In this document: positions 8,129 to 42,582 of the stretch, piece by piece
Layout of the letters: each line of letters starts with the position of its first letter
Position numbering within the stretch: the first letter of the stretch is position 1
DNA from: Rhodospirillales bacterium
Lineage (GTDB): Bacteria; Pseudomonadota; Alphaproteobacteria; BOG-932; Roseiterribacteraceae
Assembly (NCBI GenBank): GCA_028291345.1
Contig: JAQGIF010000089.1
Location: 1-45,821, forward strand
Length of the DNA stretch: 45,821 nucleotides
Direction: 5' to 3'
Position numbers and translations under genes: made by a program
The notes under the pieces: model-generated
The model's database searches: none
Seen by the model: the letters and a program-made list of their open reading frames with translations, nothing else
Told to the model about the DNA's origin: nothing

Positions 8129-8255
8129 ACGCCCTCCTGCGGACTTGTCCCTAAAGACAGTATGTCCGACTTCTTTATTGAGAGAAGAGAAGTGCATTGC
8201 TTCGTATCGCGCCTCCGGCTACATTATCTACATTCCATTACTGAGGTGGCGGACC
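8129..8255. promoter_or_regulatory. Divergent intergenic region
   Basis: This 127-base gap lies between the minus-strand nucleotidyltransferase and the plus-strand radical SAM gene. The radical SAM start at 8256 has a clear GAGGTGG ribosome-binding site at about 8243-8249. Promoters for both directions are expected here from layout; no boxes are certain. Confidence 0.4.
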
Positions 8256-17966: not shown

Positions 17967-18023
17967 CATGCCTCTTGCCCAACCTTCCCCGATCCCAGCG
18001 CTCTTGAAAGGGGAGCAACTGGA

Positions 18024-19628
18024 ATGAGCGTCGGCATCATCACCTCGGCCGCCTTCATCAACCCTGAAATGGCGGCCGAATTCGGGCCCCTGCCGCCATC
18101 GTTTCTACCGGTGGGCAATACTAGGTTGTTCAAGTTCCAGGCGAAGCTGCTGCGCAGACTGGCTGATCACGTTGTTTTGAGCCTTCCGCAATCCTTTGTC
18201 CCTTCGGCGCAGGACAGACGGCTTCTGTCGGCGCTGGATATCGGCGTCGTTAGTATTCCGGATGGCCTGGCGTTGGCCGAGTCCGTGATGCTCGCGATCA
18301 TCCAGAGTATCACCGGCGACGAAGCGCTCTTTATATTGCACGGCGACACCTTGTTCCTGGGGTTATGCGACTTCCCCCCGGATGGACTTTCAGTGCATGC
18401 CGGAGACCATCCCTATCCCTGGGCGATAGCGCACGGGCGCGAACAGGTTCGCATCGCACCGGTGGATGAGGGCAGCCGCGAAGGCGCCTCGATCGTGAGC
18501 GGGCTGTTCAGCTTTTCGCGTGGTCTTGTCTTTCTGAAATGCCTGGCGGAGGCCAAGCCGGATTTTCCAGCGGCACTCAACGCCTATGCGCGGCAGTATC
18601 CCGAATTCCGCGCCGTCCAAGATTCCGGCCAGTGGCTCGACCTCGGCCACCTCAACACATATTACGACTCCCGCCGCGCGCTCACTACCGAACGCGCGTT
18701 CAATATGCTGTCGATCACCCGCGATGTGGTGTGCAAGACGAGCGCACAGAGCGACAAGATCGAGGCGGAGGCGTCATGGTTTGAATCTCTGCCGTCCGCA
18801 CTCAGGAGCTATATTCCCGCCTATCTCGGCCGCGTTGAGGCTGGATCGAACCATCCTGGCTACTACCTGGCTTATGAGTATCTTTGTCCTCTGAGCGATC
18901 TATATGTGTTCGGTGCGCTCGCGCCTGTGGTCTGGCGGCGCATCCTGACACGCTGCGGCGAAGCGCTTTCGCAGATGCGCGCCTGGAAGCCGGCAGCCAT
19001 CGAAGCAGGCTGGTTCGGTCATCTCTATGCGAACAAGGCGGCTGCGCGATTCCGGTGTTTCGCCGAGGAGGCAGGTGTCTCCCCCGATGACGGATGGGAG
19101 ATCAACGGGGAGCTATTTCCTTCGCCGCTGCAGCTGATCGAGGAAATGGCCGGACTTATCGGTCCGCCGGGCCAGGAGGATGTCGGCATCCTCCATGGCG
19201 ATTTCTGCCTCAGTAACATCCTGTTCGACTTCCGCAGCAGCAGCGTGAAGCTGGTCGATCCGCGCGGCTATGCCGAACCCGGCAAGCCCTGCATTTTCGG
19301 CGACACCCGCTACGATATCGGGAAACTGCACCATTCAATCGTAGGGCGGTACGATTTCATCGTCGCCGGATATTACGATCTGACGAAGATTGCCCCTCAC
19401 GCCCTTTCTTTCGATGTCTCCGGCGCGGGCGCGCAGGACGATATCGAACGTCATTTCCGCGATGTCATTTGTGACGGCGATCCCGACCGGGAGCGTATGG
19501 CCGCCGCGATATCGGTCCTGCTGTTCTTCTCCATGCTGCCGCTTCATGCTGAAGATCCGCAGCGGCAATGGGCGTTTCTGGCCAACGGATACCGCGTGTA
19601 CCAGCGGTATTTCGGTGAGGCCGCGTGA
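18024..19628 (+). CDS. Fused nucleotidyltransferase-like and APH-type kinase protein
   Basis: The 534-residue product joins two domains. Residues 1-230 resemble a sugar/choline nucleotidyltransferase: LPVGNTRLFKFQ, the LHGDTLF metal strand and the terminal WLDLGHLNTYYDSRR. The glycine-rich GxGTR loop at the N-terminus is missing (it reads TSAAFINPEMAAEFG). Residues about 290-534 are an aminoglycoside/choline-kinase-like domain with the catalytic loop LHGDFCLSNILFD and the metal-binding KLVDPRG. Related proteins are annotated in capsule loci of Campylobacter and others. LicA-type kinases and LicC-type cytidylyltransferases make CDP-activated small molecules in the same way. A good AAGGGGAG ribosome site precedes the ATG. 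The stop overlaps the next gene's start. Likely role: phosphorylate and activate a small group attached to the polysaccharide (inference). Confidence 0.75.
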   Translation: MSVGIITSAAFINPEMAAEFGPLPPSFLPVGNTRLFKFQAKLLRRLADHVVLSLPQSFVPSAQDRRLLSALDIGVVSIPDGLALAESVMLAIIQSITGDEALFILHGDTLFLGLCDFPPDGLSVHAGDHPYPWAIAHGREQVRIAPVDEGSREGASIVSGLFSFSRGLVFLKCLAEAKPDFPAALNAYARQYPEFRAVQDSGQWLDLGHLNTYYDSRRALTTERAFNMLSITRDVVCKTSAQSDKIEAEASWFESLPSALRSYIPAYLGRVEAGSNHPGYYLAYEYLCPLSDLYVFGALAPVVWRRILTRCGEALSQMRAWKPAAIEAGWFGHLYANKAAARFRCFAEEAGVSPDDGWEINGELFPSPLQLIEEMAGLIGPPGQEDVGILHGDFCLSNILFDFRSSSVKLVDPRGYAEPGKPCIFGDTRYDIGKLHHSIVGRYDFIVAGYYDLTKIAPHALSFDVSGAGAQDDIERHFRDVICDGDPDRERMAAAISVLLFFSMLPLHAEDPQRQWAFLANGYRVYQRYFGEAA

Positions 19629-20392
19629 TGTTCGTGATCCCCATGGCGGGCGAAAGCAGGCGCTTTCGTGACGCCGGTTATCTGCTGCCGAAATTCCGGC
19701 TAGCGGCGCATGGGGCGTCGCTGTTCGAACACGCAGTCAACAGCTTCTCCACCTACTTCCGGACCGATGAATTCCTTTTTGTCGTACGCGGCGCTGATAC
19801 TGCTCGCTTCGTGCAGAGATGGTGCGAAGAGCTGATGATCGAACGCGTGGCGGTCGTAACGCTGGACGGCATGACGGCTGGACAGGCGGAGACGGTTCTG
19901 CGCGGTCTGGACGACGCGGGCGTCGATGACTCCAAAGGTATCGCGGTTTTCAACATCGATACATTCCGGCCCGCCTATAGGAAGCCCCAGCATGTGGCGG
20001 ACCCGAACTGCACCGGCTATCTGGAGGTATTCCGGGGCAGCGGCACAGGCTGGTCGTTCGTGGCGCCGCATCCAGTGCATGGTGAAGAGGTCGCGGAGGT
20101 GGTCGAAAAGGATCGTATCTCCGACCTTTGCTGCACGGGTCTTTATTATTTCCGCCGCGCCGGGGATTTCCGCTGGGCGTATCACAATCCTGAACCGCCG
20201 CGGAGCGACGCCGAGCGCCGGGAGCGGTACGTGGCGCCGCTCTACAATGCGCTGATTTCGTCCGGCCGCCGGATCGGCCTGCAGCTCATCGATTCTGCCG
20301 ATGTCATCTTTTGCGGGACGCCACAAGAATACGCGCATGTTCTCGCCTCGGAAGAAACCGGGCGGCGGATACGAATGACCCGCAGGGAATAG
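19628..20392 (+). CDS. Nucleotidyltransferase (LicC/capsule type)
   Basis: This protein of about 254 residues begins MFVIPMAGESRRFRDAGY.LPK, a clear nucleotidyltransferase entry signature (MAG-S-RF-x3-GY-x2-PK). It also has the AVFNIDTF metal-binding strand and VVEKDRISDLCCTGLYYF, the turn typical of sugar- or choline-type nucleotidyltransferases. It starts at the ATG sharing bases with the preceding TGA stop (TGATG), so translation is coupled to the kinase fusion. A GTG one codon earlier is possible. Unlike the preceding protein's domain, this one keeps the Gly/Arg-rich loop and should be the active nucleotidyl-transferring partner. Product identity (sugar or small organic phosphate) is unknown. 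Confidence 0.8.
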   Translation: MFVIPMAGESRRFRDAGYLLPKFRLAAHGASLFEHAVNSFSTYFRTDEFLFVVRGADTARFVQRWCEELMIERVAVVTLDGMTAGQAETVLRGLDDAGVDDSKGIAVFNIDTFRPAYRKPQHVADPNCTGYLEVFRGSGTGWSFVAPHPVHGEEVAEVVEKDRISDLCCTGLYYFRRAGDFRWAYHNPEPPRSDAERRERYVAPLYNALISSGRRIGLQLIDSADVIFCGTPQEYAHVLASEETGRRIRMTRRE

Positions 20393-20396
20393 CAAC

Positions 20397-21347
20397 ATGC
20401 GAACGGGCAAGATCGCCATCCTCGTTCCAACCTTCAACGGGGGCGTGCTCCTGTGGGAGACCATCGCGTCCGTCGCCCGGGCAGGAGTGCCAGTCGCGAG
20501 CTACGAGATCGTCGTTTCGGACAATGCGTCGACCGATGACAGTATCGCGCGTTTGCCCGCCGTGGACGGCCAGGGCGGACCGATCACGGTTTATCGCAAT
20601 CCCGCCAATTTTGGCCGCGTCGCCAATTGGAACTGCGCAATCGCGCATGCAGAGGAGATGGGTTTCTCCTACGCGATGTTCCTGATGGTGGGAGACGTCC
20701 TCAAACAGGCCAGCATAGTCGAATTGAGGGAGCGGATGGAACGCCAGAACGCGGCGCTTGGCGTTGCCTGCTACGAAATCGCTGATGAGAGGCTTCGACC
20801 GCTCCGCGTCGCCCGCAGAATTCGCTGGTCCGGCGATCCCGAAATCGGCATCGACGCCGAGCGGTTCCTCGCCCAGTCGCTGGCGACAGGAGCGATGCTG
20901 TACGGTCCCCTCGGCGCAAACCTTTACCGTATCGACGGTGCGGCGCGCCTGCGCTTCGATCCGGACGACGAAAGCCATACTGACCAGCTGGCAACGGCTC
21001 TGTTCGCGCAAAACGCGCGTGGCCCCGTCGTGTATCTCGACAAGCCGGTATCCTGCTGGCGCCGCCGCGCGGGTCGCTTCCATAGCTCGCTGACGGCTGC
21101 GCAGAGATTGGCAGGCGATCTACGCGTGATGGAATCCGCCTGCCGTTCCGCGCATGTCGCGCCCGACTACGCAAAGATCCGCGCAAGCCTGATGCTGCGC
21201 GCCGCCTATTTCACGCGCGGCAATCTCCACGCCGCTTGGACGTGTTCACGGGCTTTGACGGAAGGCGCCCGGCCATCCTGGGCTTGGTTGGCGAAATTGC
21301 TGTGCCGACAACTGCACTACAAGACGCCTTGGCTGGTCAAGGCTTGA
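20397..21347 (+). CDS. GT2 family glycosyltransferase
   Basis: The 316-residue product opens with the GT-A signature IAILVPTFNGG..LWETIASV, followed by IVVSDNASTDDS and NFGRVANWNCAI. It continues with YAMFLMVGD, where the family's DDD/EDD acidic motif reads GD. The later segment ESHTDQLATA fits the catalytic-base region. An AGGGA ribosome site lies eight bases before the ATG and only four bases separate it from the preceding stop. It probably adds the residue or group activated by the two upstream genes. Cytoplasmic, inverting type. The replacement of the usual DxD makes metal-binding geometry unusual, so donor type is unclear. Confidence 0.8.
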   Translation: MRTGKIAILVPTFNGGVLLWETIASVARAGVPVASYEIVVSDNASTDDSIARLPAVDGQGGPITVYRNPANFGRVANWNCAIAHAEEMGFSYAMFLMVGDVLKQASIVELRERMERQNAALGVACYEIADERLRPLRVARRIRWSGDPEIGIDAERFLAQSLATGAMLYGPLGANLYRIDGAARLRFDPDDESHTDQLATALFAQNARGPVVYLDKPVSCWRRRAGRFHSSLTAAQRLAGDLRVMESACRSAHVAPDYAKIRASLMLRAAYFTRGNLHAAWTCSRALTEGARPSWAWLAKLLCRQLHYKTPWLVKA

Positions 21348-21372
21348 TGCAAAGATGAAGACAGGATTGGCA

Positions 21373-24300
21373 ATGAATTTGGGCAAGGATCTGCTGCTTA
21401 AACAACGCACCGGCCGACCGCTCGTGTTTCGGCGCCGCAGCACATCGCGCACCCTGCTTTTCCTGACGTTGCTGATGCTGCAGGGATGGTGCGTGCTGGC
21501 TCCGGCTCCCGTTGCGGCGCAGAATCTTTCGCAAATCCTGGGTAACGGCAGCAGCGGAAGCGGAAGCAGCGACGTTACCGGCGAAATATTCCGCGCGCTT
21601 CAGCAGCGTCTCACAGGCCAATCGACCGTGCCCTCCTTGCAGCCCGATATTCAAATTCAGAATCCACCCACATATCCACCGCAGTCCACCGTACCCGGCG
21701 CTTTGGGCAATTCGCAGCGTTCGCAACAAAACTTCGGTCCGATGTCGCCGATCGAACGGCTGATGAGCCAGCGCGCCGGGCAACCGATCCGGCAATTCGG
21801 TTATGAAATCTTCGGACGCGGTGCTCCTGTCATCGTGCGGCAGAGCGGAGCGCTGCAGGATAATTATGTGCTGGGTGAGGGTGACGAGATCGTACTCACG
21901 CTACGCGGGCAGCAGAATAGCAGCTTTCGTACCCGTGTGGACCGCGACGGCCGGGTTGTGTTTCCGGCTTTGCCGCCAATCTCCGGGTCTGGGCGGCCAT
22001 TTGGCGCTTTTCGCACCGATCTCGAAGCGGCGGCGCGGCACGCAATCACTGGAACGGAAGTGCTCGTATCCGTCGGCGCAGTGCGCCAGATTTCGGTGCG
22101 CGTGGTGGGCGAGGTCAATTCGCCGGGGCTGTTCAGCCTTTCAGGGATATCCACGGCGATGGATGCACTCAGCCTTGCAGGCGGCGTCAAGAACACCGGA
22201 TCGCTACGCGATATTCAGATTGTGCGCGGTGGCAATACCATCCGCCTCGATCTTTATACCCTGCTCACGGGCCAGGCAAATGGAGCCGACGTCACGCTCA
22301 CGGAAGGGGACCGTATCGTCGTGCCGCTGCAGAGAAGCGCGGTCGCGGTGGCCGGACAGGTGAAACGGCCTGCGATCTATGAGTTGCCGCCGGGGCAGAA
22401 CGCAGCTCTGATTTCCGATGTGTTGGGACTGGCCGGCGGCCCGGAAGTGCGCGGCAGCTACCGCTTCTCGATCCTGCGTACGCGTGGCGACGGGAAGCGG
22501 GAAATGGTCCGGGTCGGCACCGGTTCGAATGTCGCGGTTTACGACAGCGATATTGTCTTTGTCGCCGCGACCGCCGACGTCTCGTTGGCCAGGGTAGAGC
22601 TGATGGGCGCCACGGCTCTCAACGGATATTACCCGCTCAATACCGCCCACAGCCTGAGCAGGCTGCTGAACTCCCTCGACATGTTCTCGCCAACGGCTGG
22701 CAAGCCGTTGCCGTATCTTTTGCTCGACGCGATCATTCGGCTCGACCCTTCGACCATGCAACGGAAGGTCATTCCGTTCTCGCCTGTCGATGTTCTTGAG
22801 GGCAAGGCAGATCTGAAACTACAGTCCAACGATCTTGTGTACATCATGAACGTCGCCGAAATGCGCTACATCGCGCACCGGGCCGCCACTGCGCAGCGGA
22901 TCCAGTCCCGACGTATCGTAAGCGACCACCCTGACACCGGCGCGCAAAATCCGCCAGCCATGGAAAGTGCCCTCGCATCGGCTGTTGCCGGAAGGGGACA
23001 ACCATCGCCGGCCAACAATCCTTCGTCGACGATCGATGTGCGGGCGGCCGAACTGGCCGCGTTGCAGGGTCGCCAGGGCGTGCCACAGCTCACGACGCCG
23101 TCCGGGATACAAGGCATGGCGGGCCGGCAGGCACTTACAGGCAATTTGGGCGGACTCGGCTCATCTCCCAACCAATCTTTTGGGGCATTCGCCCAGGACC
23201 AGGCGACTGCAGAGACGCAGGGTCAGGGCCCGCCGGAATCGGAAGCGGAGCGTCTCAATCCGGGCATTCTGGTCCCCGCTGAGTACGGCATCCCGAACCA
23301 GGCGCTGGACCGTGTCGATGAGCGCGACCTGCGTGACACCGCTCGCACTCCGGCGGGGCAGGCGATGGTGCCGGGCGCATCCTTCAGCAACCGCGAGCCA
23401 TTGCGCCTTTTCGTCGGCTTGGATGATGATACAAGGCACCTTCTCGTCAGCACGCTGGGCAATTACTATGTGACAGCGGTCGGCGAGCTGAATAATCCGG
23501 GCGATTTCCTGGCCATGCCTCAGACGAGTTTGGCCAACGTCGTCCAGGCGGCGGGGGGGCTGACCCCAAAGGTCGATCTTCATGCTTTTGAGATCACTTC
23601 GGCAGTGACCGACAATGCGTCCGGCGTTTCGCATACGGTTCGTAGGAACTACGATCTGCCGGTCAGCCTGTTCTCTCAGGTGTCACTCAACCTGTACGAT
23701 CGTATTCGTTTCAACTCGGTGTTTTCGGATCGCGATTCCGGTGATGTTTCGGTGGTTGGCGAAATCAAATATCCCGGCGGCTATGAGATCCTGCGCGGCG
23801 AGCACCTGTCGTCGGTATTGGCGCGGGCTGGCGGCTTCACCGACGCGGCCTATCCGTCGGGTGCCATCTTCCTTCGCCGGTCAGTGGCCGAGGAGCAGCG
23901 CGGCGTGGCGCAACGGGAGGCGGACGCGCTGGAACGACAGGTCGTCGGCATTGTAGGAACGGTCTCAAACAAGGCGCGAGTCACCGACGCCGAAATCGCA
24001 TATATCGGGCAGATGATCGAGCGGTTGCGCCAAGGAGGCGATCCAGGCGGTCGCGTGGCGGTGGAGATCGACCCACGGGAGATCGCCGCTCACCCTGAAC
24101 TCGATGTGGTGATGGAACCGGGGGACCAGCTTTTCATTCCTCGCAGGCCGAGCTCCGTAGTGATCGCGGGGGAGGTGATGTCTCCCGGCGGGATTCAATT
24201 CCGAGCCGACCGATCGGTATCAACTTATGTGGCGCTGGCCGGCGGGTTGACCGAAATCGCCGACGAAGATCACATGTTCGTGATCCAGCCGGACGGATCT

Positions 24301-24480
24301 GCCGTTCGGGTCAACGGCGATTCCTGGTTGTCCGAGCCGCCCGAGCTGGCGCCGGGCTCCGTCATCGTGGTGCCTCGCAAGCTGCGTCACTTTACCTGGG
24401 ATTCGCTGCTGGAGGATGTGATCCAGGTCACGAGCCAGGCCGCCATCACGGCGGCCTCACTTTCGGTGATCTCGCGGTAG
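21373..24480 (+). CDS. Large multi-SLBB polysaccharide export protein (Wza-like, 1035 aa)
   Basis: The product is far longer than a Wza (about 380 residues). After a signal peptide ending near APVAA comes a low-complexity Gln/Ser/Pro-rich stretch, a polysaccharide export domain (about residues 155-235: NYVLGEGDEIVLTLRG, VDRDGRVVFPALPP) and at least six SLBB-type repeats. Recognisable cores are VVGEVNSPG, VAGQVKRPA, VELMGATALNG, AVGELNNPG, VVGEIKYPG and IAGEVMSPG. Another Pro/Gln-rich linker lies around 530-640. No lipobox is seen at the signal-peptide end, so it is probably not a lipoprotein. I choose the ATG at 21373 for its AGGA at proper spacing; an in-frame ATG at 21355 lacks one. It should form the outer-membrane or periplasmic export channel and closes the operon. 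Confidence 0.8.
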   Translation: MNLGKDLLLKQRTGRPLVFRRRSTSRTLLFLTLLMLQGWCVLAPAPVAAQNLSQILGNGSSGSGSSDVTGEIFRALQQRLTGQSTVPSLQPDIQIQNPPTYPPQSTVPGALGNSQRSQQNFGPMSPIERLMSQRAGQPIRQFGYEIFGRGAPVIVRQSGALQDNYVLGEGDEIVLTLRGQQNSSFRTRVDRDGRVVFPALPPISGSGRPFGAFRTDLEAAARHAITGTEVLVSVGAVRQISVRVVGEVNSPGLFSLSGISTAMDALSLAGGVKNTGSLRDIQIVRGGNTIRLDLYTLLTGQANGADVTLTEGDRIVVPLQRSAVAVAGQVKRPAIYELPPGQNAALISDVLGLAGGPEVRGSYRFSILRTRGDGKREMVRVGTGSNVAVYDSDIVFVAATADVSLARVELMGATALNGYYPLNTAHSLSRLLNSLDMFSPTAGKPLPYLLLDAIIRLDPSTMQRKVIPFSPVDVLEGKADLKLQSNDLVYIMNVAEMRYIAHRAATAQRIQSRRIVSDHPDTGAQNPPAMESALASAVAGRGQPSPANNPSSTIDVRAAELAALQGRQGVPQLTTPSGIQGMAGRQALTGNLGGLGSSPNQSFGAFAQDQATAETQGQGPPESEAERLNPGILVPAEYGIPNQALDRVDERDLRDTARTPAGQAMVPGASFSNREPLRLFVGLDDDTRHLLVSTLGNYYVTAVGELNNPGDFLAMPQTSLANVVQAAGGLTPKVDLHAFEITSAVTDNASGVSHTVRRNYDLPVSLFSQVSLNLYDRIRFNSVFSDRDSGDVSVVGEIKYPGGYEILRGEHLSSVLARAGGFTDAAYPSGAIFLRRSVAEEQRGVAQREADALERQVVGIVGTVSNKARVTDAEIAYIGQMIERLRQGGDPGGRVAVEIDPREIAAHPELDVVMEPGDQLFIPRRPSSVVIAGEVMSPGGIQFRADRSVSTYVALAGGLTEIADEDHMFVIQPDGSAVRVNGDSWLSEPPELAPGSVIVVPRKLRHFTWDSLLEDVIQVTSQAAITAASLSVISR

Positions 24481-24587
24481 GCCCAGGGAATAAAGCTCCC
24501 CCTGATTCCGTCATCTAGCATGTGATGGGTAGGGGCCTGGCTGCAATCTGAGACAGGGTAACAACTTCTTCTCGCCAGAGGGCTGAG

Positions 24588-26078
24588 ATGGCTCGTATAG
24601 TTGTCGGCAGCGTCTATTTCCTCCGCTTGGACCCGGTGCGCTGGGCCGAGCGGCAACCCTTTCCGCCCATCGGCACCCTCTATGCCGCCGGAACGCTACG
24701 CGCCGCTGCCCATGAAGTCCATTTCTTCGACGCAATGATCGCCGGAGCAGTTGGGGAATGGGACGCGATTCTGATGCGCGTCCGCCCGGACATCGCGGTG
24801 CTGTTCGACGACAATTTCAATTATCTGTCGAAGATGTGCCTATCCGCGATGCGTGAGGCCGCGCTCGCGATGGTCGCTCGTGCGCGGAACGTCGGCGCAA
24901 AGGTCGCCATCTGCAGCGCAGATGCCTCGGACCACCCGGACCTTTACCTTAAAGCCGGCGCTGCTGCCGTCATCGTCGGCGAGGGGGAGGCGACCTTGCG
25001 CGAATTGGCTGGGCGGTGGGCCGCAGGCGACTCCGATCTCTCGTCCATCAAAGGCATCGCCTGGTGCAATGCGGAGACAGGCGTCGCGCGCACGCCGCGC
25101 CGCGAGTCGCTGCGCGATCTCGATTCGCTGCCGCCGCCGACCTGGGATCTGGTGGACATGGACGCTTATCGCGGGATATGGCGCGGTCATCATGGTTTCT
25201 TCGCGCTCAATCTCGTCACGTCGCGTGGCTGCCCCTATCTGTGCAACTGGTGCGCCAAGCCTATCTGGGGCCAGAGCTACGCGGTACGTAGCCCCGCCGC
25301 CGTAGCCGCCGAGCTCGCCCAGCTCGTTGCCATCGCGGCGCCGGACTATGTCTGGTTTATGGACGACATCATGGGCCTGAAACCCAGATGGTGGCGCGCT
25401 TTTGCCGATGCGCTCGATGCATTGGGTGTCAAAGTGCCGTTCAAATGCCTCAGCCGCGCCGACCTTGTGCTGCGCGAAGGCGCTGTGGCGGACCTCAAAC
25501 GCGCGGGCTGCGATATCGTCTGGCTGGGCGCCGAATCGGGAAGCCAGAAGATTCTCGACGCCATGGACAAGGGTCTCACCACCGGTGAGATCGCCGAAGC
25601 CACCGCACGGCTGAAATGGGCAGGCATCCGGGTCGGCCATTTCCTGCAGTTCGGCTATCCGGGCGAGAGTATAAAGGATATTGTGCGGACCCTTGCGATG
25701 CTGCGGGCGACGAAGCCGGACGAGCTGGGCATCTCGGTCTCCTATCCGCTTCCGGGAACGCTCTTTTACGAGCGGGTACAAAGCCAGTTGCGCGACAAGC
25801 GCAACTGGACCGTATCCTCCGACATGGCGATGCTCTATCGCGGGCCTTTCACCACTTCGTTCTACCGCCATTTGCACGTCTATGTGCATCGGGATTTCCG
25901 GCTGCGCCGCGCGTTAAGCCAGTTGCGCAGTGTTCTCGTCGGCCAGGCGACGCTTGGGCGGGCGCATCTGCGCGCGTTCGCTTTTGTGCTCTACTGCGGG
26001 CTGGCGATTCCCTTTTCCTGGATGCAGCTGCAGCTGCTGCGCCTCATGCCGCATCCAAGTAACAGGACCGCGCCGTGA
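24588..26078 (+). CDS. B12-binding-type radical SAM enzyme 1 of the operon
   Basis: This 496-residue protein combines an N-terminal cobalamin-type Rossmann domain (about 1-140: FPPIGTLYAAGTLR, AVIVGEGEATLREL) with a radical SAM domain bearing CPYLCNWC (Cys215, Cys219, Cys222). Further motifs are WFMDDIMGL, WLGAESGSQKILDAMDKG and FLQFGYPGESIKD. The DxHxxG motif is not seen. The C-terminus carries a hydrophobic region (LYCGLAIPFSWMQLQLL), a possible membrane contact. ATG with GAGGGCTGAG upstream is a clear start, after a 107-base gap that holds no gene. It heads a run in which the next four genes overlap or nearly touch. Family members methylate or otherwise modify unactivated carbons; substrate unknown. 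Confidence 0.85.
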   Translation: MARIVVGSVYFLRLDPVRWAERQPFPPIGTLYAAGTLRAAAHEVHFFDAMIAGAVGEWDAILMRVRPDIAVLFDDNFNYLSKMCLSAMREAALAMVARARNVGAKVAICSADASDHPDLYLKAGAAAVIVGEGEATLRELAGRWAAGDSDLSSIKGIAWCNAETGVARTPRRESLRDLDSLPPPTWDLVDMDAYRGIWRGHHGFFALNLVTSRGCPYLCNWCAKPIWGQSYAVRSPAAVAAELAQLVAIAAPDYVWFMDDIMGLKPRWWRAFADALDALGVKVPFKCLSRADLVLREGAVADLKRAGCDIVWLGAESGSQKILDAMDKGLTTGEIAEATARLKWAGIRVGHFLQFGYPGESIKDIVRTLAMLRATKPDELGISVSYPLPGTLFYERVQSQLRDKRNWTVSSDMAMLYRGPFTTSFYRHLHVYVHRDFRLRRALSQLRSVLVGQATLGRAHLRAFAFVLYCGLAIPFSWMQLQLLRLMPHPSNRTAP

Positions 26079-27475
26079 GCAACATACTCTTAACCCACGG
26101 CTATTTCCTCAACGAAGATCCGGCGGAACGGAAGGTGATGAAGCCTTATCCGCCGCTCGGCCTGCTCTACATCTCTTCGCATCTAAAGAAATGTGGATTT
26201 TCGGTCGACATTCTGGACACTACCTTTCTGGACGTGACATCAGCCCTGGCCCTGCTGGCCGAAAAGCGGCCACGGATCGTCGGGATCTACGCTAATCTGA
26301 TGACGCGGGGCAATGCGCTCACTGTGGCCGCCGCATGCAAGGCCGTCGGCGCGTTCGTGATTCTGGGTGGGCCCGAGCCGGCCAATTATGTCGACGAGTA
26401 TCTCAGCCGCGGCGCGGACATTATCGTGTCCGGCGAGGGTGAACTGACGCTCGCCGAGTTGATCCCGCATCTGACGCACCACGGACTTACCGGACTTGAA
26501 GCGATAGCGGGAATCGCCTTTCGCGACGGCGACGGCGAGGTGCGCAGGACCACGCCGCGCGCCCAGATCGTCGATCTCGACGCCCAGCCTTTTCCGGATC
26601 GCGCTGCTATCGATTTGGAACGCTATCTTTCGACATGGCAGCGGCATCACGGCATACGTTCGGTGTCGCTGATCGTGGCGCGAGGCTGCCCCTACACCTG
26701 CAATTGGTGCAGCCATTCGGTATTCGGCCACAGCCATCGCCGCCGGTCACCGGAGAATGTCGCCGATGAGATCGCCCTTATTCGGGAGACCTATGCGCCG
26801 GACCAGCTCTGGTTCGCCGATGACGTCTTCACCATCAATCAGAAATGGCTGGAGCGTTTCGCGGCCGAAATGAAGCGCCGCGGCTTGCGCTATCCGTTCG
26901 AGACCATTACGCGCGAGGACCGCCTGAACGAACGGGTCGCCGAACTTCTAGCCGAACTTGGTTGCTATCGCATCTGGATCGGCGCGGAGAGCGGCTCGCA
27001 ACGCGTCTTGGACGCCATGGAGCGGCGTACCAATGCGGCACGGACGCGCGAGATGATCGCACTGGTCAAACGCAAAGGCATCCGGGCCGGAACCTTCATC
27101 ATGCTGGGATATGACGGCGAAACATGGGACGATATCGACGAGACCGCGCGCCATTTGCGCCTCGCCGCGCCCGACGATGTGCTGACGACCATCAGCTATC
27201 CCATCAAGGGGACGCCATACTATGACCGGGTTTCGGACCGTATTGCCGGCAGCGATGCTTGGCACGAAAGCTCGGACAGGGCGCTGACCGTCAAGGGACG
27301 CAAATCGCGCCGCTTCTACCGCCATGCCCAGCACTGGTTGGCGGCCGAAAGCCATGTCGGGCGGTTAGCCGCCGACGATGGCGCCGGCTTGATGCGCCAC
27401 GCCAAGGCCAGAGCCATGTCCGCCATAAGCCGCATCGGCATGTATGCGACGCGCCATGAGGTGGAACATGGCTGA
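26075..27475 (+). CDS. B12-binding-type radical SAM enzyme 2 of the operon
   Basis: The 466-residue product is similar in build to the preceding enzyme: LLTHGYFLNEDPAERK and YPPLGLLYISSHLKK at the start of the B12-type domain, IIVSGEGELTLAEL, and the cluster motif CPYTCNWC (Cys205, Cys209, Cys212). These are followed by LWFADDVFTINQ, IGAESGSQRVLDAMERR and FIMLGYDGETWDD. The two genes are probably old duplicates. The start is GTG at 26075, overlapping the previous TGA stop (GTGA), so translation is coupled. No DxHxxG motif is seen. The pair of related enzymes in one operon suggests two successive radical steps, or one step on two positions of the same substrate. Confidence 0.85.
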   Translation: MSNILLTHGYFLNEDPAERKVMKPYPPLGLLYISSHLKKCGFSVDILDTTFLDVTSALALLAEKRPRIVGIYANLMTRGNALTVAAACKAVGAFVILGGPEPANYVDEYLSRGADIIVSGEGELTLAELIPHLTHHGLTGLEAIAGIAFRDGDGEVRRTTPRAQIVDLDAQPFPDRAAIDLERYLSTWQRHHGIRSVSLIVARGCPYTCNWCSHSVFGHSHRRRSPENVADEIALIRETYAPDQLWFADDVFTINQKWLERFAAEMKRRGLRYPFETITREDRLNERVAELLAELGCYRIWIGAESGSQRVLDAMERRTNAARTREMIALVKRKGIRAGTFIMLGYDGETWDDIDETARHLRLAAPDDVLTTISYPIKGTPYYDRVSDRIAGSDAWHESSDRALTVKGRKSRRFYRHAQHWLAAESHVGRLAADDGAGLMRHAKARAMSAISRIGMYATRHEVEHG

Positions 27476-28286
27476 ACCCGGCATGATTCCGCTCCATCCC
27501 GACGCGTTTGACAATTTCGCGTCTGATTATGACGCGGAATTCGCGCATCGCGCGCCGGGCCGTTGGTTGCGCGAGGCGGTATGGCGGCTGCTGGCACCCT
27601 ATGTCAGGCCGGGGACGCGTGCGGTCGACTTAGGCTGCGGCACCGGCGAAGACGCGGTGTGGTTGGCGCGTGCAGGTTGCGAGGTGACTGCGGTGGACAG
27701 CTCGCCCGCCATGCTGCAAGCCACCCTGCGCAAGGCGACGCAATGCGGTGTCAGTGACCAAGTCGCTGTGCGACCTTTCGATCTCAACGCACCGGACGAC
27801 ATCGGGGGATCATTCGATTTCGTGCTGTCCAATTTTGGCGCGCTCAACTGCGCGACCGATCTAAAGCGGCTAGGCACGATGTTGCACTCGGCAGTGGCGC
27901 CAGGCGGCATCGTCGCTGCCGTTATGATGGGTCGCTTCTGTGCCTGGGAAACGCTCTGGTATGGCATGCGTTTGAAGCCCGCAGCCGTGCGTCGCTGGCG
28001 CGGACGCGCGGCGGCGGATATCGGCGGCAAGATCGTTCCCGTGCAATATTGGAGTGCAAGGGATTTAGCCGAATCTCTGGGCACAGCCTTTCGTACGCTG
28101 TCTATCCATCCGGTCGGCCTCTTCTTGCCACCTTCAGACCTGTTTGCGCTGATCGAGCGCCGGCCGCGCCTGTTCGCGCACCTGACGTGGTGGGAAGCGC
28201 GGGTCTCGTCCTACGCTCCGCTCGCCCACATGGCGGACCATCATCTCACCATCCTGCAGCGTGCCCAAGAGGATGCCCGGCCATGA
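27468..28286 (+). CDS. Class I SAM-dependent methyltransferase
   Basis: The 272-residue protein has a small-molecule methyltransferase core: FDNFASDYDAEF (the start typical of Methyltransf_11/25 enzymes), SAM loop VDLGCGTGEDA (about residues 51-61), VTAVDSSPAML, and FDFVLSNFGALNC at motif IV. The ATG at 27468 lies within the end of the preceding gene (8-base overlap) and is preceded by GAGGTGG, so it is the likely start. It ends overlapping the next radical SAM start (ATGA). Location inside the radical SAM operon points to a conventional O- or N-methylation of the same intermediate. Confidence 0.8.
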   Translation: MAEPGMIPLHPDAFDNFASDYDAEFAHRAPGRWLREAVWRLLAPYVRPGTRAVDLGCGTGEDAVWLARAGCEVTAVDSSPAMLQATLRKATQCGVSDQVAVRPFDLNAPDDIGGSFDFVLSNFGALNCATDLKRLGTMLHSAVAPGGIVAAVMMGRFCAWETLWYGMRLKPAAVRRWRGRAAADIGGKIVPVQYWSARDLAESLGTAFRTLSIHPVGLFLPPSDLFALIERRPRLFAHLTWWEARVSSYAPLAHMADHHLTILQRAQEDARP

Positions 28287-29755
28287 TCTTGTTCTATAAT
28301 CCTGTAAGTTCGGCCTCTAAGAAGCCGGTCCTGCCCATGTCGCTGCTGGCGGTCGGTGCGATGCTGGAAGGCAAGGAAGAGTATCGCATCATCGACGGCA
28401 ATCTTGTGGAGGACGGGCTCGCAGCCTTGCGTGGCGCGATTCATGCCACACACGCCGACATTCTCTGCATGACGGTGATGCCGGGCCCACAGCTTTCCGA
28501 TGCCGTGCCGATCTGCAAAGCTTTGAAGGGCGAGTTCCCAGGTCTGGTTATCGTCTGGGGCGGCTATTTCCCTACCCTGCACGGCCCAGTCGTGATGAAG
28601 GAGCGCTATGTCGATTTCGTGTTTCGCGGTCATAGCGAACTTGCTTTCGGCGACTTCGTGCAAAAGATACGGCGTGGCGAGGAGGTGAGCGCCATCGTGG
28701 GGTTGGCCTGGCGCGGCTCCGATGGACTGGCGCATCTCAACCCCAAGCCGCCGGTGCCGGACATCAACGCCTTGCCGGATTTTTCTTATGAGCGCATCGA
28801 CATGGAGCGATATGTGCGCGCCTCCTTCCTGGGCACGCGCACCATCGCCCATCACACCAGCTATGGCTGCCCATTCAAATGCAGTTTCTGTGCGGTCGTT
28901 AATATGGTGAATGGCCGGTATTCGGCACAGACCGCGGAGCGTACTGCGGCGGTGGTGGAGAAGCTGGTCCGGAAATACCGCGCCACGGCAGTCGAGTTTT
29001 ATGACAGCAACTTCTTCGTCCAGGAAAGCCGCTGCGCCGAGTTCGCCGAGCGCATCACGCCGCTCGATATCGGCTGGTGGGGATTCGGACGTGCAGACAC
29101 GATGCTCAAATTCAGCGACGCCACCTGGACGACGATGCGCAGAAGCGGTCTCAAGATGGTTTTCATGGGCGCGGAGTCCGGCGACGCCGAAACGCTGCGC
29201 CGGATGAACAAGGGCGGCAAACAGGACGGCAACGTCATCCTCGCTGTCGCCGAGAAGATGCGCAAATTCGATGTCGTGCCGGAGATGTCCTTCATCATCG
29301 GCAACCCGCCCAATCCGGAAGCCGACGCCGAGAACACCATCCAGTTCATCCGCACCCTCAAGAAGGTCAATCCGGCCGTCGAGATCGTGTTCTACATCTA
29401 CAGTCCCGTGCCGGTGGAAGGGGGCATGCTGCAGGAGGCGGAGGCCACGGGGTTCGAATATCCGAAGGATATCGAGACCTGGACCCAGGCTCGCTGGGAG
29501 AAATTCGCGCAGCATATGTCGTCGGACCTGCCCTGGATGAACGACCGGATCCGTCGGAAGATCGGCAATTTCCAGCGGGTGCTGCACGCGGCTTATCCCA
29601 CCGTCACCGACACAAGGCTGACACGCGCCGGCCGCTTGGCGCTCCGGAGCGTCGCTGCTTGGCGCTATGCTACGCAATTCTACGATTTTCCACTGGAGCT
29701 GAGGTTGCTGAATAAGCTGTTTCCCTACCAGCGGCCGGAAATCCAGGGATTTTGA
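28283..29755 (+). CDS. B12-binding-type radical SAM enzyme 3 of the operon
   Basis: The 490-residue product starts with MILFYNPVSSASKKPVLPMS at an ATGA overlap with the methyltransferase stop. It has the B12-type domain end VIVWGGYFPTLHG and FVFRGHSELAFGDF, then CPFKCSFC (Cys196, Cys200, Cys203). Further motifs are FYDSNFFVQE, FMGAESGDAETLRRMNKGG and SFIIGNPPNPEADAE. It is less like radical SAM proteins 1 and 2 than they are like each other, and closer to BchE-type or hopanoid-modifying sequences in its KPxxPxSLLAVGAML opening. The classical cobalamin ligand motif is not seen. A frame open further upstream within the methyltransferase is an artefact. Substrate unknown. Confidence 0.85.
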   Translation: MILFYNPVSSASKKPVLPMSLLAVGAMLEGKEEYRIIDGNLVEDGLAALRGAIHATHADILCMTVMPGPQLSDAVPICKALKGEFPGLVIVWGGYFPTLHGPVVMKERYVDFVFRGHSELAFGDFVQKIRRGEEVSAIVGLAWRGSDGLAHLNPKPPVPDINALPDFSYERIDMERYVRASFLGTRTIAHHTSYGCPFKCSFCAVVNMVNGRYSAQTAERTAAVVEKLVRKYRATAVEFYDSNFFVQESRCAEFAERITPLDIGWWGFGRADTMLKFSDATWTTMRRSGLKMVFMGAESGDAETLRRMNKGGKQDGNVILAVAEKMRKFDVVPEMSFIIGNPPNPEADAENTIQFIRTLKKVNPAVEIVFYIYSPVPVEGGMLQEAEATGFEYPKDIETWTQARWEKFAQHMSSDLPWMNDRIRRKIGNFQRVLHAAYPTVTDTRLTRAGRLALRSVAAWRYATQFYDFPLELRLLNKLFPYQRPEIQGF

Positions 29756-29818
29756 CCGTGAGTGCCCCTGCTCGGTGGCGCGCCCGTTTACGCGTGGATG
29801 TTTTTGCGCCTTAAAGCT

Positions 29819-30610
29819 ATGAGCGAGATGATGATAGAGTCGGCCTTGCCACCGCCGCCGGTTTCAAGGGCCGTCAAATGGCTCTGTACACCCTGGATGG
29901 CCGTGAAGCGCGCTACTCTGCGTCGCAGGCTCGGCAAGGCCGTCTTCGAGCGCGTGCTGCGGCGCCACTTCATCATATGGCCTGGGGTCTTCAACCCGGT
30001 GGTGTTTCGGACCGGGCGTTTTCTGGCCGAATTCGTCGCGCGCACCCCGTTGCTGGAGTCGGGAGCCGAGCCGAAAACCGCGCTCGACATGGGAACAGGA
30101 TGCGGCGTGCTGGCGATCTTTGCGGCGCTGCGCGGCTATCGCGTCACTGCCGTCGATCTTGTGCCGGAAGCGGTCTCCTGCGCCAGAGCCAACGCAATCC
30201 TCAATCGGGTCGACGTGGAGCTGCTTCAGGGCGACCTGTTTGCCCCCGTCGCGGGACGCACATTCGATGCCGTGTTTGCTTCCCTGCCGAAATTCCGCGG
30301 GACACCCAACACCGTGTTTGAGCAGTCCTGGCGCGGCGTGTTCGACCAGTCCTGGCGCAGCCTTGATGTGATCGACCGATTTGCCGAGGGCCTGCCGGCG
30401 GTCTTGAAACCAGGAGGCATCGCTCTCTTCGTGCTGACCAGCCACGGCGATTGCGAGGGCATGCTGAGCGGTCTGGCAAGAGCCGGTCTGTCCGTCGAGC
30501 GGCTATTGTGGCGCCATTTCGGCGTCGAGACGATGGCAATTTATGCGGCCCGCTTGCCTGTTGTTCAGACGCCAGCGAATCTGGCGATGAGCGCGGCCGG
30601 ATCGAGCTGA
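29819..30610 (+). CDS. HemK-like methyltransferase lacking the NPPY motif
   Basis: This protein of about 263 residues has a Rossmann core (LDMGTGCGVLAIFAALRGYRVTAVDL at about residues 83-105, the SAM loop being MGTGCGVLA). It resembles PrmC/HemK-like and rRNA/DNA N-methyltransferases up to motif IV, where NPPY is replaced by SLPK. It is therefore unlikely to be an N-methyltransferase of that kind. An eight-residue tandem duplication (VFEQSWRG/VFDQSWRS) directly follows this motif. The start is uncertain: ATG 29819 is chosen; GTG 29762 in frame is the alternative. An 18-codon leader frame (GTG 29758 to TAA 29814) with good AGGGA may couple translation. Last gene of the radical SAM operon; overlaps the convergent amidohydrolase by 46 bases. 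Confidence 0.65.
   Translation: MSEMMIESALPPPPVSRAVKWLCTPWMAVKRATLRRRLGKAVFERVLRRHFIIWPGVFNPVVFRTGRFLAEFVARTPLLESGAEPKTALDMGTGCGVLAIFAALRGYRVTAVDLVPEAVSCARANAILNRVDVELLQGDLFAPVAGRTFDAVFASLPKFRGTPNTVFEQSWRGVFDQSWRSLDVIDRFAEGLPAVLKPGGIALFVLTSHGDCEGMLSGLARAGLSVERLLWRHFGVETMAIYAARLPVVQTPANLAMSAAGSS
30314..30361 (+). repeat. 24-base tandem duplication within the HemK-like gene
   Basis: Two adjacent 24-base units (30314-30337 and 30338-30361) differ at three positions and keep the frame, encoding VFEQSWRG and VFDQSWRS. It looks like a recent duplication that has begun to diverge. Confidence 0.85.
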
Positions 30611-31635
30611 GGCTCGATCGCCCGCATAATCATCTCGAGCGGCATCCGCACATATTTGCGGCTGGCGCCCCAGGCCAACGGGAAGAAATCCGCTGAAAGG
30701 GGGACGGCCGCCGCCAGGGCCGTATCTATCAGGATTGGCTGCCCGGCCCGGACCACCAGCAGGATGTCGTCAGGCGTAAGTGAAAAGAAGGCGTCCCATT
30801 TTGCGGATTCGCGCCGGCGGGCGATGACGAAGTCGTCTCGCCGCCGCAGACGCCAGAAGCGTGCTGGACGCGCCGTCAGGGCGGCGAAGATGTCCTCGTC
30901 CGTCACCACGTCGCGGACCTGACGCAGATGATCCCAAAGCGTGCCTGGAGCGGAAAGCGTTGAGTCGGTGCCGAACAGGACCGCGGTATGCCGCGTTGCC
31001 GATGCGACATCCGCGGTCTGCCCGAACAAGAACAGATTCGAGACGGGACACCAGATCAGCGCGCTCAGACGCGAAAAATCGCCGCTTTCCAGGCTGACGC
31101 CGTGGACACCCGCGACAGGGCGGTGGAACAGATTTCGCTCAAGGAAAAGCAGCGCCCGCCGTCGGCTCTCCGCCGTTGTCCCCTCGGCGAGATGAAGCAC
31201 GACCGGTCTCAACCCGGTCAGCCATTTGACAGGATGCTCGAGCTCGGGCGAGTGCAAGTCCTTGTAAGGTGACAGCACCGCGATCGCGTGGTTGCCGGGA
31301 ATTGCTGTACCGCCATGATCGGCGACCGCCGTCACGCCCCACAGCAGGTTTTTGAGCAGGCCCAATTGCGCCCGCATCCGGCGGTCAATGGCCTCGATCC
31401 TTTCGACCATGTCGCGCGCGGCCTGGACGTCGTAACTCCATTCCAGGAAATCGCGATATGGCGGCGTCCCGGTGGGCGCGTAACAGTTGAATTCGAGATG
31501 ATCGTGAGAATTGATGAGGCCGGGAAATGCGATCGTCTCGTCCAGACGAGACCCGTGGGCCTGCGCTATGTCGGCTAGACAGGGCGGAGGAGGGGCGGGA
31601 CCGATCCATTCCAGTCTGTTCGGAAACTGCGCCAT
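30565..31635 (-). CDS. Amidohydrolase family protein (ATZ/TRZ-like)
   Basis: The 356-residue product has the metal-dependent amidohydrolase features in order. These are FPGLINSHDHLEFN (HxH metal pair, here HDH, about residue 43), VLHLAEGT (third His region), GVHGVSL and CPVSNLFLFGQ, and VLFGTDSTLSA with the metal Asp. The CPxSNxxL segment is typical of the ATZ/TRZ/deaminase branch, which hydrolyses amino groups from rings or chlorinated compounds. I start it at the ATG at 31635, just after the YdcF-like stop. It lies on the opposite strand to the radical SAM operon and overlaps its last gene, so it belongs to a different transcript, with the YdcF and transglycosylase genes. Substrate unknown. 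Confidence 0.75.
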   Translation of the reverse strand: MAQFPNRLEWIGPAPPPPCLADIAQAHGSRLDETIAFPGLINSHDHLEFNCYAPTGTPPYRDFLEWSYDVQAARDMVERIEAIDRRMRAQLGLLKNLLWGVTAVADHGGTAIPGNHAIAVLSPYKDLHSPELEHPVKWLTGLRPVVLHLAEGTTAESRRRALLFLERNLFHRPVAGVHGVSLESGDFSRLSALIWCPVSNLFLFGQTADVASATRHTAVLFGTDSTLSAPGTLWDHLRQVRDVVTDEDIFAALTARPARFWRLRRRDDFVIARRRESAKWDAFFSLTPDDILLVVRAGQPILIDTALAAAVPLSADFFPLAWGASRKYVRMPLEMIMRAIEPQLDPAALIARFAGV

Positions 31636-34004: not shown

Positions 34005-36539
34005 TCAAAAGACATATTGCGCTAAGAGCCCTATCGAATGGGCCGTGAAGTTCTCAGGTATCACGCCGAGATAGTAGTTGTTATTGATGACCCCGCTCGT
34101 AAGGCCTTGATAATGAAAGTCGGCGATGTTCTCGTAATTGAACCGGTAAAACAGCCGGTAGGATAGTCTGGGCGTATATTGCCAGCGCAGATTCGTCTCG
34201 AATACGTGGGAATTGAATGTTATGTCGGGAAACGCGTTGCCGGCCTGGGCCGCCGTCAAAAGATTGAAAAATGCGCCTGTGCTTGCGTAGCTATAGTTGA
34301 GGGCAGTCTGCCCGCGCGTAAAAGTGTAATCGGCGCTAAGCGAGAACCTACCCCAGCTGTGCTGGGCATTCAGGCCGAACGTGTAATTTTTCGAGCCCAC
34401 CGTCTCATACCAGCCATTGGCCAGCGGATAGGCCGGACTGCCGGCGGCGCCGCTGGTGCCGATCCCGGTGGGATTGATGTTCGCGACGCTGCGATCCTGA
34501 TCCTGGAAGGTAAAAAAGCCGGTGATCGTCGTGGTCGGCGACATCTGGTAATTGAGCGAGACATTCGTGTTCCATGCGGTCGTCGATTTGAGACCGTATG
34601 CTGCGTCGTAGTCATCGATCTTGACGTCGCCGCTTAGCTGGAGGTCGATTTTGGGGGAAATGACGAAGTTGCTCTGACCGTGGACGGTATGCTCGGTGCG
34701 GTTGGCGACGTCGAACTTGCGCAAATCGGCCAGCGCGAAGGGCGGATCGCCCGTCGGTGTCGCAGGCGCATAGTTTGGGAGAAATGACGAGTAGTAAGGG
34801 GTATAGGGGTTGGAGTTGTAATCGCTGCCGATGCGCCGAGCAAACTCGTAGGACAGGCGCACGGTTCCCCAGGAATAGCCCGTCGTATCGAACTGCAGGC
34901 GCACGATATTGTCGTTGGCATTCGGCACTTCCCGCACGCTGTGTTCGATGATGTTGTTGGCATATGACAGGTTCAGCTTCATGTGATTGTTGATGCGATA
35001 CGCCGCGCTCGCGCTCAGCTTCAGGTTGTCGTTGGCGAAGGGCATGTTCCTGATCTGCACCAGGCTTCCGGGGACGCCCGGTTCGTACACGCCGCTTAGT
35101 CGCGGAATGAAAGGCGCCAGCCCGCCATCGATCGCGATATAGCCGTATTGGCCGGTCTGCGGATTGAACGCGACATAATTCGTCAGATTGTCTTCGTTGC
35201 GTTCTCGCAATTCGAAGGTGAGGTTGAGGTCTGGGGAAACGGTGTAGTGAAATTGCGCAAAGGCGTTGAAGATGTTGATGGCTGCGTTGGCGCGCGGCTG
35301 GCTCAGTGCCGCCGCGCTGTTCCACTGGTTGAGGTTGATGGCTGTGGCAACACCGCGGATCGTTCCGTTGCCCACCGTCGGCGGCAGCAGGTCGTCATCC
35401 TGCCGCATCAAGCTATAGGAAAGGCTGGCCGTGAAGCGGGCTTCCGGTGACAGCTGCGCCGCCAGGTCGCCCTTCAGCGTGTGATATTCATTGTCGGGCG
35501 GAAGGCTGAGCCGCCCTGCCGTCGGAATGTAGGCACCTGGTGTGGTGTTGGAGGTCAGGCCCGGATTCTGCCACGTCAGGGCCTCATTGCCGTTGCGGAA
35601 GATGGAACCGGAATAGGTCAGATTGGCTTGGATATTCTCTTTCTTGTAGCGCACCGCCGCGGTGATATCGAAGGTCTGATAGTGGATTGGCTGGATAAGT
35701 TGCGTTGCGCCGTTCTGAAAGGGATAGCCGAAAGTCGCGCTGATGGGCTGCGTTCCGTCGCGCCATTCGTCAGATAACTTCAGAAGCATCTCGAGTTCTT
35801 TGTCGGGCGTATAGGTGAACGAGATGCCGGCCTTTTCGCGCGTCACGCGAAGCTCGCTTGGGGGCACGATGGCGACCACCGCCGAGACTTGCGCGGCACT
35901 GGAAGCGCCCGGTGTCAGGCCGTTGCGCAGAGTCAAACTCCCCGTGCCAACACCGTCCCAGATCGACTTGGCGGTGGTCGAGTAGAGGTGAGTGACTGAA
36001 TCGAAGAAGCCTGTGAAATTGAAGACGCCATAGCGGCCGATCGTGGCCTGGTAATATTGATCCGCTCGTCCGAGATTCTCGCCCAGCGCCGACACGTAGA
36101 GGCCGGTGTTTCGATTCTCAGCCAGGAATCCCAGATTGGTGGCCAGAGGCGCGGTTCCCCATTCACCATACTCGTTCAGTGCTGCGGAACGCGTGTTTGC
36201 CCCAAACGTGCCCAACGCCCCGGCCTCAAGCCAGCCAATGCTCCACCAATCCGGATTGAGCTTGCTCTGCGTCATATCCGGTGTCTGGAAAGGTATCGGA
36301 TAGAGCAGGCCTGTGGGCGTGCGGGTGACGTCGATGAGCGTCGACAGGCCGTCCGGGTCGCGCGGCCGGTCGAACAACTGGCCGCCGGGATTCAGCACAT
36401 TGCCGGGACCGCCGTAGCCGGGGACAGCACTATCGGCGAAGGCAGGGGCAGTCATGGACTCCAGAATGGCCGCGGCACACAGCCACCAGACGGTCTTGGC
36501 GTTTTTCCTCCCGGCCTGGATTGACCACCCGCACCTCAT
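34005..36539 (-). CDS. MtrB/PioB family outer-membrane beta-barrel
   Basis: The 844-residue product has a signal peptide (cleavage near PAFA), then a long run of amphipathic beta-strands ending in the outer-membrane C-terminal signature LLAQYVF. This is the layout of MtrB/PioB porins, which embed a decaheme cytochrome in the outer membrane so that electrons can cross it. The CxxC motif near the N-terminus of Shewanella MtrB is absent, as in PioB. Its start ATG overlaps the TGA of the decaheme gene (ATGA), so the two are translated together. Partners: the decaheme cytochrome and monoheme cytochrome c directly upstream. No surface MtrC-like cytochrome is in the window. Confidence 0.9.
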   Translation of the reverse strand: MRCGWSIQAGRKNAKTVWWLCAAAILESMTAPAFADSAVPGYGGPGNVLNPGGQLFDRPRDPDGLSTLIDVTRTPTGLLYPIPFQTPDMTQSKLNPDWWSIGWLEAGALGTFGANTRSAALNEYGEWGTAPLATNLGFLAENRNTGLYVSALGENLGRADQYYQATIGRYGVFNFTGFFDSVTHLYSTTAKSIWDGVGTGSLTLRNGLTPGASSAAQVSAVVAIVPPSELRVTREKAGISFTYTPDKELEMLLKLSDEWRDGTQPISATFGYPFQNGATQLIQPIHYQTFDITAAVRYKKENIQANLTYSGSIFRNGNEALTWQNPGLTSNTTPGAYIPTAGRLSLPPDNEYHTLKGDLAAQLSPEARFTASLSYSLMRQDDDLLPPTVGNGTIRGVATAINLNQWNSAAALSQPRANAAINIFNAFAQFHYTVSPDLNLTFELRERNEDNLTNYVAFNPQTGQYGYIAIDGGLAPFIPRLSGVYEPGVPGSLVQIRNMPFANDNLKLSASAAYRINNHMKLNLSYANNIIEHSVREVPNANDNIVRLQFDTTGYSWGTVRLSYEFARRIGSDYNSNPYTPYYSSFLPNYAPATPTGDPPFALADLRKFDVANRTEHTVHGQSNFVISPKIDLQLSGDVKIDDYDAAYGLKSTTAWNTNVSLNYQMSPTTTITGFFTFQDQDRSVANINPTGIGTSGAAGSPAYPLANGWYETVGSKNYTFGLNAQHSWGRFSLSADYTFTRGQTALNYSYASTGAFFNLLTAAQAGNAFPDITFNSHVFETNLRWQYTPRLSYRLFYRFNYENIADFHYQGLTSGVINNNYYLGVIPENFTAHSIGLLAQYVF

Positions 36540-42481: not shown

Positions 42482-42582
42482 GTCTTTGGAAAGACCATAA
42501 ACTATGTCAATACTTGTTGAGACAAATTAGCGTCTTGAAAGCCCAGATCCGCGCCAGCATCGATAGTGGGGAAGTGGTCGTC

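Follow-up and report, generated by a model that had tools for sequence, protein, structure and literature searches.

Of the described radical S-adenosylmethionine (SAM) enzymes closest to the locus studied here, OxsB of oxetanocin A biosynthesis acts on a nucleotide and AprD4 of apramycin biosynthesis on an aminoglycoside precursor. HpnJ, which belongs to the synthesis of bacteriohopanetetrol cyclitol ether, acts on a glycosylated lipid (PMC12583986). In many cobalamin radical SAM enzymes the cofactor is bound without a histidine ligand: OxsB has Asn/water instead, TsrM has Arg and TokK has Trp (PMC13331322, PMC8992657). Here we describe an operon of five genes at positions 24588–30610 of a contig from a Rhodospirillales bacterium (JAQGIF010000089.1; its 45,821 nucleotides are referred to as the window). 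The operon encodes three B12-type radical SAM proteins, B1, B2 and B3, and two methyltransferases, MT1 and MT2. Our tentative reading, held with slightly less than even confidence, is that these genes are the right half of a dispersed cassette that builds or alters an unusual unit in a lipid-linked glycan of the cell surface. The other members of this cassette are a fourth radical SAM protein (B4), a nucleotidyltransferase (NTPtr2) and an amidohydrolase (AmHyd).

The five reading frames are intact and lie on the forward strand, and their coordinates confirm an original prediction of same-direction genes that overlap or nearly touch. The core gene B1 (24588–26078; 496 residues) overlaps B2 (26075–27475; GTG start, 466 residues) at GTGA, B2 overlaps MT1 (27468–28286; 272 residues) by 8 bases, and MT1 overlaps B3 (28283–29755; 490 residues) at ATGA. 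MT2 (29762–30610; GTG start) begins 6 bases past the end of B3; its start is uncertain, and a later one near 29897 is also compatible with the coding signal and the orthologue length. By Pfam, MT1 and MT2 are class I methyltransferases, MT2 being HemK-like. When the window is compared with Nitrospirillum, third codon positions differ about 3–5 times more than second positions in B1, B2, B3 and MT2, and about 2.6 times more in MT1; the five genes are under protein-level sequence constraint.

B1, B2 and B3 each contain one CxxxCxxC motif and a Radical_SAM Pfam domain well above cut-off, and B4 (8178–9665, forward strand) likewise has the motif and a radical SAM domain. On these motif and domain grounds B1–B4 are members of the radical SAM superfamily. 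The B12-binding Pfam domain is over its cut-off of 32.1 bits in B2 (54.8), B3 (37.5) and B4, and B1 (31.0) is 1.1 bits short. The structural model of B1 (predicted local distance difference test score, pLDDT, 86.0) matches OxsB, AprD4, MgmA, CysS and TsrM over nearly its full length. B1–B4 are probably of the Rossmann-class cobalamin-dependent type, B1 judged by fold and B2–B4 by Pfam, with cobalamin use predicted. The three B12-type assignments of the original prediction hold, as does its statement that the first two proteins are related (B1 and B2 are 36% identical). It had also found no DxHxxG motif, and there is none in B1, B2 or B3. This absence is usual for the enzyme class and uninformative on cobalamin use, because OxsB, TokK and TsrM bind cobalamin without a histidine ligand. 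A conserved loop of B1 (residues 74–83) was weighed as the lower-axial site; model confidence is low there and no residue was assigned.

Searching genome contigs with B1 yielded 364 relatives, and the best 80 of these were analysed. Identity to B1 is 76–78% in Nitrospirillum and Azospirillum sp. B4, 75% and 66% in two alphaproteobacterial metagenome-assembled genomes (MAGs), and 47–57% in Chloroflexota, Acidobacteriota, KSB1, Bacteroidota, Myxococcales and one Rhodobacteraceae MAG. The cassette recurs in at least six phyla; cultured carriers include Nitrospirillum viridazoti CBAmc and N. amazonense strains. Across the alphaproteobacterial loci (L009–L016), B1-B2-MT1-B3-(SPASM)-MT2 is syntenic together with polysaccharide genes, and in genome G321 the syntenic stretch starts one gene to the left of NTPtr2 and reaches a multihaem cytochrome gene. 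Compact cassettes occur in other phyla, such as NTPtr2-B1-B4-B2-MT1-MT2-B3 in L018 and L030. The gene run is more than chance, because the same order recurs in Nitrospirillum and other Alphaproteobacteria, overlapping operons recur in other phyla, and the codon positions differ as described above.

The unit of five genes is real as predicted, but the conserved set is larger, and B4, NTPtr2 (7226–8128, reverse strand) and AmHyd (30565–31635, reverse strand, downstream of MT2) had been missed. All three lie in the same window, flanking a polysaccharide locus, with B4 beside NTPtr2, which is a divergent nucleotidyltransferase. NTPtr2 and B1 are the most constant part of the cassette, B2, B3, B4 and MT2 being less so. 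Outside the close alphaproteobacterial group, 63 loci had enough sequence to show what precedes B1. Immediately before it and on its own strand, 37 of them have NTPtr2 and 17 an amidohydrolase (54 together), the most frequent spacing being −4, a 4-base overlap. The 17 amidohydrolase loci are Chloroflexota-type, and 13 of 14 such genomes still carry NTPtr2 elsewhere. NTPtr2 was single copy in all seven of the cassette genomes first tested, and in locus L094 of genome G164 it shares one open frame of 878 residues with B1. The NTPtr2 model (pLDDT 91.6) combines a winged helix with a Pol-beta-type nucleotidyltransferase domain; NTP_transf_2 is just over its Pfam cut-off, and the DxD carboxylates D126 and D128 are invariant in 36 sequences. 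AmHyd is a metal-dependent amidohydrolase, and a metal-site-like pattern (HDH, H, HLAEG, H, D) is kept in its alphaproteobacterial, Chloroflexota-type and L096 members.

In a tree of 86 proteins, built by a quick method and with long outgroup branches, B1, B2, B3 and B4 are each split off by a branch with support of 99–100. Each clade spans several phyla, B1 is sister to B2 and B3 is sister to B4; on this phylogenetic footing B1–B4 are four orthologous families. Their divergence is correlated, with distance-matrix correlations of 0.89 for B1–B2, 0.95 for B1–B3 and 0.94 for B2–B3, and MT1 correlates with B2 (0.91) and B3 (0.94); in none of 500 permutations was a value as high. MT1 with B1 gives 0.55 and the NTPtr2 pairs 0.33–0.68. 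Part of these correlations is shared species history. A comparison of B4 with L016 is not valid and is disregarded, since that locus does not include B4 and the paralogue B3 was taken in its stead.

The cassette varies in content and in distribution. Conservation of the five genes as one set, the lack of which the original prediction would have taken as a refutation, holds for the alphaproteobacterial gene order and fails for some Chloroflexota, which have only NTPtr2-B1-MT1. Whole genomes were checked for 24 cassette carriers, mostly chosen for a non-adjacent B2: an orthologue of B2 is present in 11 (52–57% identity) and missing from 13, and B3 is present in 14 and missing from 10. MT2 is fused to a second, N-terminal methyltransferase domain in L017, L018, L037 and L062, with a zinc-ribbon-like start in L062, and L040 keeps the two methyltransferases as separate genes. 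The extra SPASM radical SAM gene between B3 and MT2 is found in Nitrospirillum, Azospirillum sp. B4 and L015 (within L009–L015), has relatives in L030 and L079, and is absent at that site in the window and L016. B1 is found at E < 1e-90 in only 3 of 385 alphaproteobacterial genomes (G000, G164 and G321), the same three that carry B3, and the other genome of the same genus whose completeness is good (95%) has none. This patchy distribution fits horizontal transfer or repeated loss.

In G164 the order (L094) is B3, a heptosyltransferase-like gene (by inspection), NTPtr2-B1, MT1, B2, a PMT-type protein, GT4, a flippase-like protein, MT2 and SPASM. By inspection, CRISPR-array-like repeats and a tyrosine-recombinase-like frame lie on one side of this cassette (L094 4817–6879 and L095) and cas-like genes on the other. 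In a proteobacterium farther removed (L096 9383–13475), the genes flanking B1 encode a different nucleotidyltransferase (PF14907) and an HPr-kinase-like protein.

Between the two halves of the cassette in the window sit Wzy-like, flippase-like, GNVR, glycosyltransferase and SLBB export genes. A Wzy/O-antigen-ligase-like protein (14112–15590) and a flippase-like membrane protein (15594–16844) are encoded on the reverse strand. They are followed on the forward strand by a GNVR/Wzz-like protein (17004–17966), nucleotidyltransferase-like/APH, NTP_transf_3-like and glycosyltransferase 2 genes (18024–21347) and an SLBB/Poly_export (OPX) protein (21355–24480), which ends 107 bases ahead of B1. When checked as a Wzx/Wzy-type locus, the region has Wzy_C, SLBB/Poly_export, Bac_transf and Wzi over their Pfam cut-offs and GNVR below; the flippase is called from predicted membrane segments only. 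The forward-strand run 17004–30610 has short intergenic gaps, and the 107 bases that separate the SLBB gene from B1 contain no terminator or RNA structure above chance. Given the short gaps and the lack of a terminator-like site before B1, 17004–30610 could possibly be one transcript. A SPASM radical SAM protein (12745–13899, reverse strand) has a homologue in the G164 cassette and is a possible part of the set; that homologue lies in two frames (L094 6902–7997), possibly a frameshift.

Association with polysaccharide genes, which the original prediction had proposed checking in other genomes, is seen in the window and in L009–L016. Beyond these, 31 distant loci extend for 8 kb or more on both sides; 24 of them include one or more members of the flippase, glycosyltransferase, PMT-type or O-antigen-ligase-like families, a raw count without a matched random-locus baseline. 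The proximity of cassette and glycan genes is an association.

Other features of the window lie outside the cassette. Directly past the locus (34005–37879) are genes for an MtrB/PioB-type outer-membrane barrel and a multihaem cytochrome; MtrB is syntenic in seven other alphaproteobacterial loci (L009–L013, L015 and L016), and the cytochrome gene is also present in L013 and L016/L093. Two adjacent forward frames (42535–42864 and 42876–43271) resemble one phosphopantetheinyl transferase, apparently split, the first matching HetI weakly. At 1574–3682 a GFO/IDH/MocA oxidoreductase is fused to a 2-hydroxyacid dehydrogenase, and L037 and L062 have a separate gene of the 2-hydroxyacid dehydrogenase type upstream of their cassettes.

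Our best reading of the product is a sugar or cyclitol, C-methylated or rearranged, that forms a unit of a lipid-linked surface glycan; the substrate and the reaction are both inferred. In this reading NTPtr2 would transfer a nucleotide onto a precursor with hydroxyl groups. B1, optionally with B2–B4, would use a [4Fe-4S] cluster, SAM and probably cobalamin for demanding steps on carbons that are not activated. From fold and family, these steps would be C-methylation or skeletal rearrangement of a sugar or cyclitol, radical outcomes known for the structural relatives of B1. MT1 and MT2 would add conventional methyl groups. More doubtfully, AmHyd may deaminate an adenosine-type by-product or act on an intermediate; it might clear S-adenosylhomocysteine or 5'-deoxyadenosine, a toxic by-product of radical SAM enzymes (PMC6079011). 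Judging by the neighbouring genes, glycosyltransferases, a flippase and a polymerase or ligase would finish the product and export it through the Wzx/Wzy/OPX-type locus. The earlier proposal that the operon alkylates a lipid or sugar of the polysaccharide, or makes a separate small molecule, is partly supported.

The glycan reading draws on the genes themselves, their orthology, their conserved adjacency, their correlated divergence and their frequent proximity to glycan genes. The joint occurrence of B1 and B3 in three genomes, the single NTPtr2-B1 frame and the likeness in fold of B1 to OxsB and AprD4 and of NTPtr2 to aminoglycoside nucleotidyltransferases also speak for it. Several observations weigh against it. 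A position within a capsule region is no proof of a common product, and 7 of the 31 long distant loci hold none of the glycan families looked for. Likeness in fold does not settle function, and the fold match of NTPtr2 is weak (Z 7.6). Since some Chloroflexota genomes have NTPtr2-B1-MT1 alone, the five genes are not indivisible and not all of B2, B3 and MT2 can be essential to one product. An open-access literature search found no relevant paper on the gene set with Chloroflexi, capsule, polysaccharide or Nitrospirillum, which does not prove that none exists. The wider claim is more doubtful, though possible: an undescribed pathway in at least six phyla, in which an enzyme of OxsB/AprD4 fold, together with a nucleotidyltransferase dedicated to it and as many as three more radical SAM lineages, would yield a carbon-skeleton-altered or C-methylated surface-glycan monomer. 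If true, radical and probably B12-dependent carbon chemistry enters surface-glycan biosynthesis, in bacteria of common soil and wastewater types such as Anaerolineae.

A rather unlikely alternative is that the product is a separate small molecule that diffuses, such as one of the aminocyclitol or nucleoside type, and that the cassette merely neighbours glycan genes. NTPtr2 does resemble aminoglycoside nucleotidyltransferases and B1 resembles AprD4 and OxsB, the cassette is patchy and ABC exporters lie near some copies; yet these exporters recur less often than glycan genes, and the recurring families examined include no enzyme that assembles a known class of small molecule (polyketide synthase, nonribosomal peptide synthetase or cyclitol synthase). 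It is also unlikely that the cassette modifies a membrane lipid (hopanoid-like, polyprenyl or a fatty chain) whose head group comes from glycosyltransferases, in the manner of HpnI, HpnK and HpnJ in the synthesis of bacteriohopanetetrol cyclitol ether. HpnJ, HpnR and ladderane-lipid models are among the nearest NCBIfam models for B1–B4, a nucleoside-phosphorylase-family protein in some Chloroflexota loci is weakly HpnG-like, and the B1 model ends in two long helices. All lipid-model scores are nonetheless far below their equivalog cut-offs: B1–B4 score 99.5–115.1 bits against 577.6 for HpnJ (TIGR03471), 58–109 against 360 for the ladderane/lipid B12 radical SAM model (TIGR04072) and 60.6–101.1 against 650 for the HpnR C-3 methylase (TIGR04367). 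The genome's true HpnJ, a member of the same superfamily as B1–B4, scores 829 bits and is on another contig (C16), and no cyclase, prenyl or acyl enzyme is among the recurring neighbour families examined.

Modification of a ribosomal peptide or protein is very improbable. Some cassettes contain SPASM radical SAM proteins, and L062 encodes a 69-residue peptide resembling an Os17/NHLP-like precursor of ribosomally synthesized and post-translationally modified peptides (17790–17999), about 400 bases after B3. That peptide scores 37.1 bits against a model cut-off of 40, and phmmer found no relative of it in the other analysed loci, the window included, so the candidate was dropped. Least credible of all is a known pathway under another name. 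BchE, HpnJ, HpnR, BzaD, ladderane and PhpK models are among the best-scoring, at about 40–170 bits, but their cut-offs are 360–650; B1–B4 also form their own clades, in a tree that contained no reference members of these families. BchE, the Mg-protoporphyrin IX monomethyl ester cyclase (TIGR02026), is the best NCBIfam model for all four proteins (B1 119.7, B2 169.8, B3 105.6 and B4 134.6 bits), none of which reaches its cut-off of 481.35. The hopanoid, bacteriochlorophyll, ladderane and other named models were all rejected as far below cut-off, which agrees with the earlier view that the set has no named pathway.

Of the known systems, OxsB (PDB 5ul4) is nearest in fold to B1, whose residues 1–487 align with it (Z 28.8, rmsd 4.7 over 438 residues). 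Both have a cobalamin domain and a radical SAM barrel and lack the histidine ligand, whereas OxsB is longer and the two are only 17% identical. AprD4 (PDB 6fd2) is the best PDB sequence match and aligns over 415 residues (Z 26.1, rmsd 3.7), but identity is 20% and, at 74 bits, B1 falls under the AprD4 equivalog cut-off (500). For NTPtr2 the closest fold is the aminoglycoside nucleotidyltransferase ANT(4''), at a Z score that is weak but consistent. NTPtr2 has the catalytic domain fold and the DxD carboxylates in common with ANT(4'') and MNT proteins, and differs from them in its extra N-terminal winged helix, an identity of 13–15% and a strong genomic link to B1.

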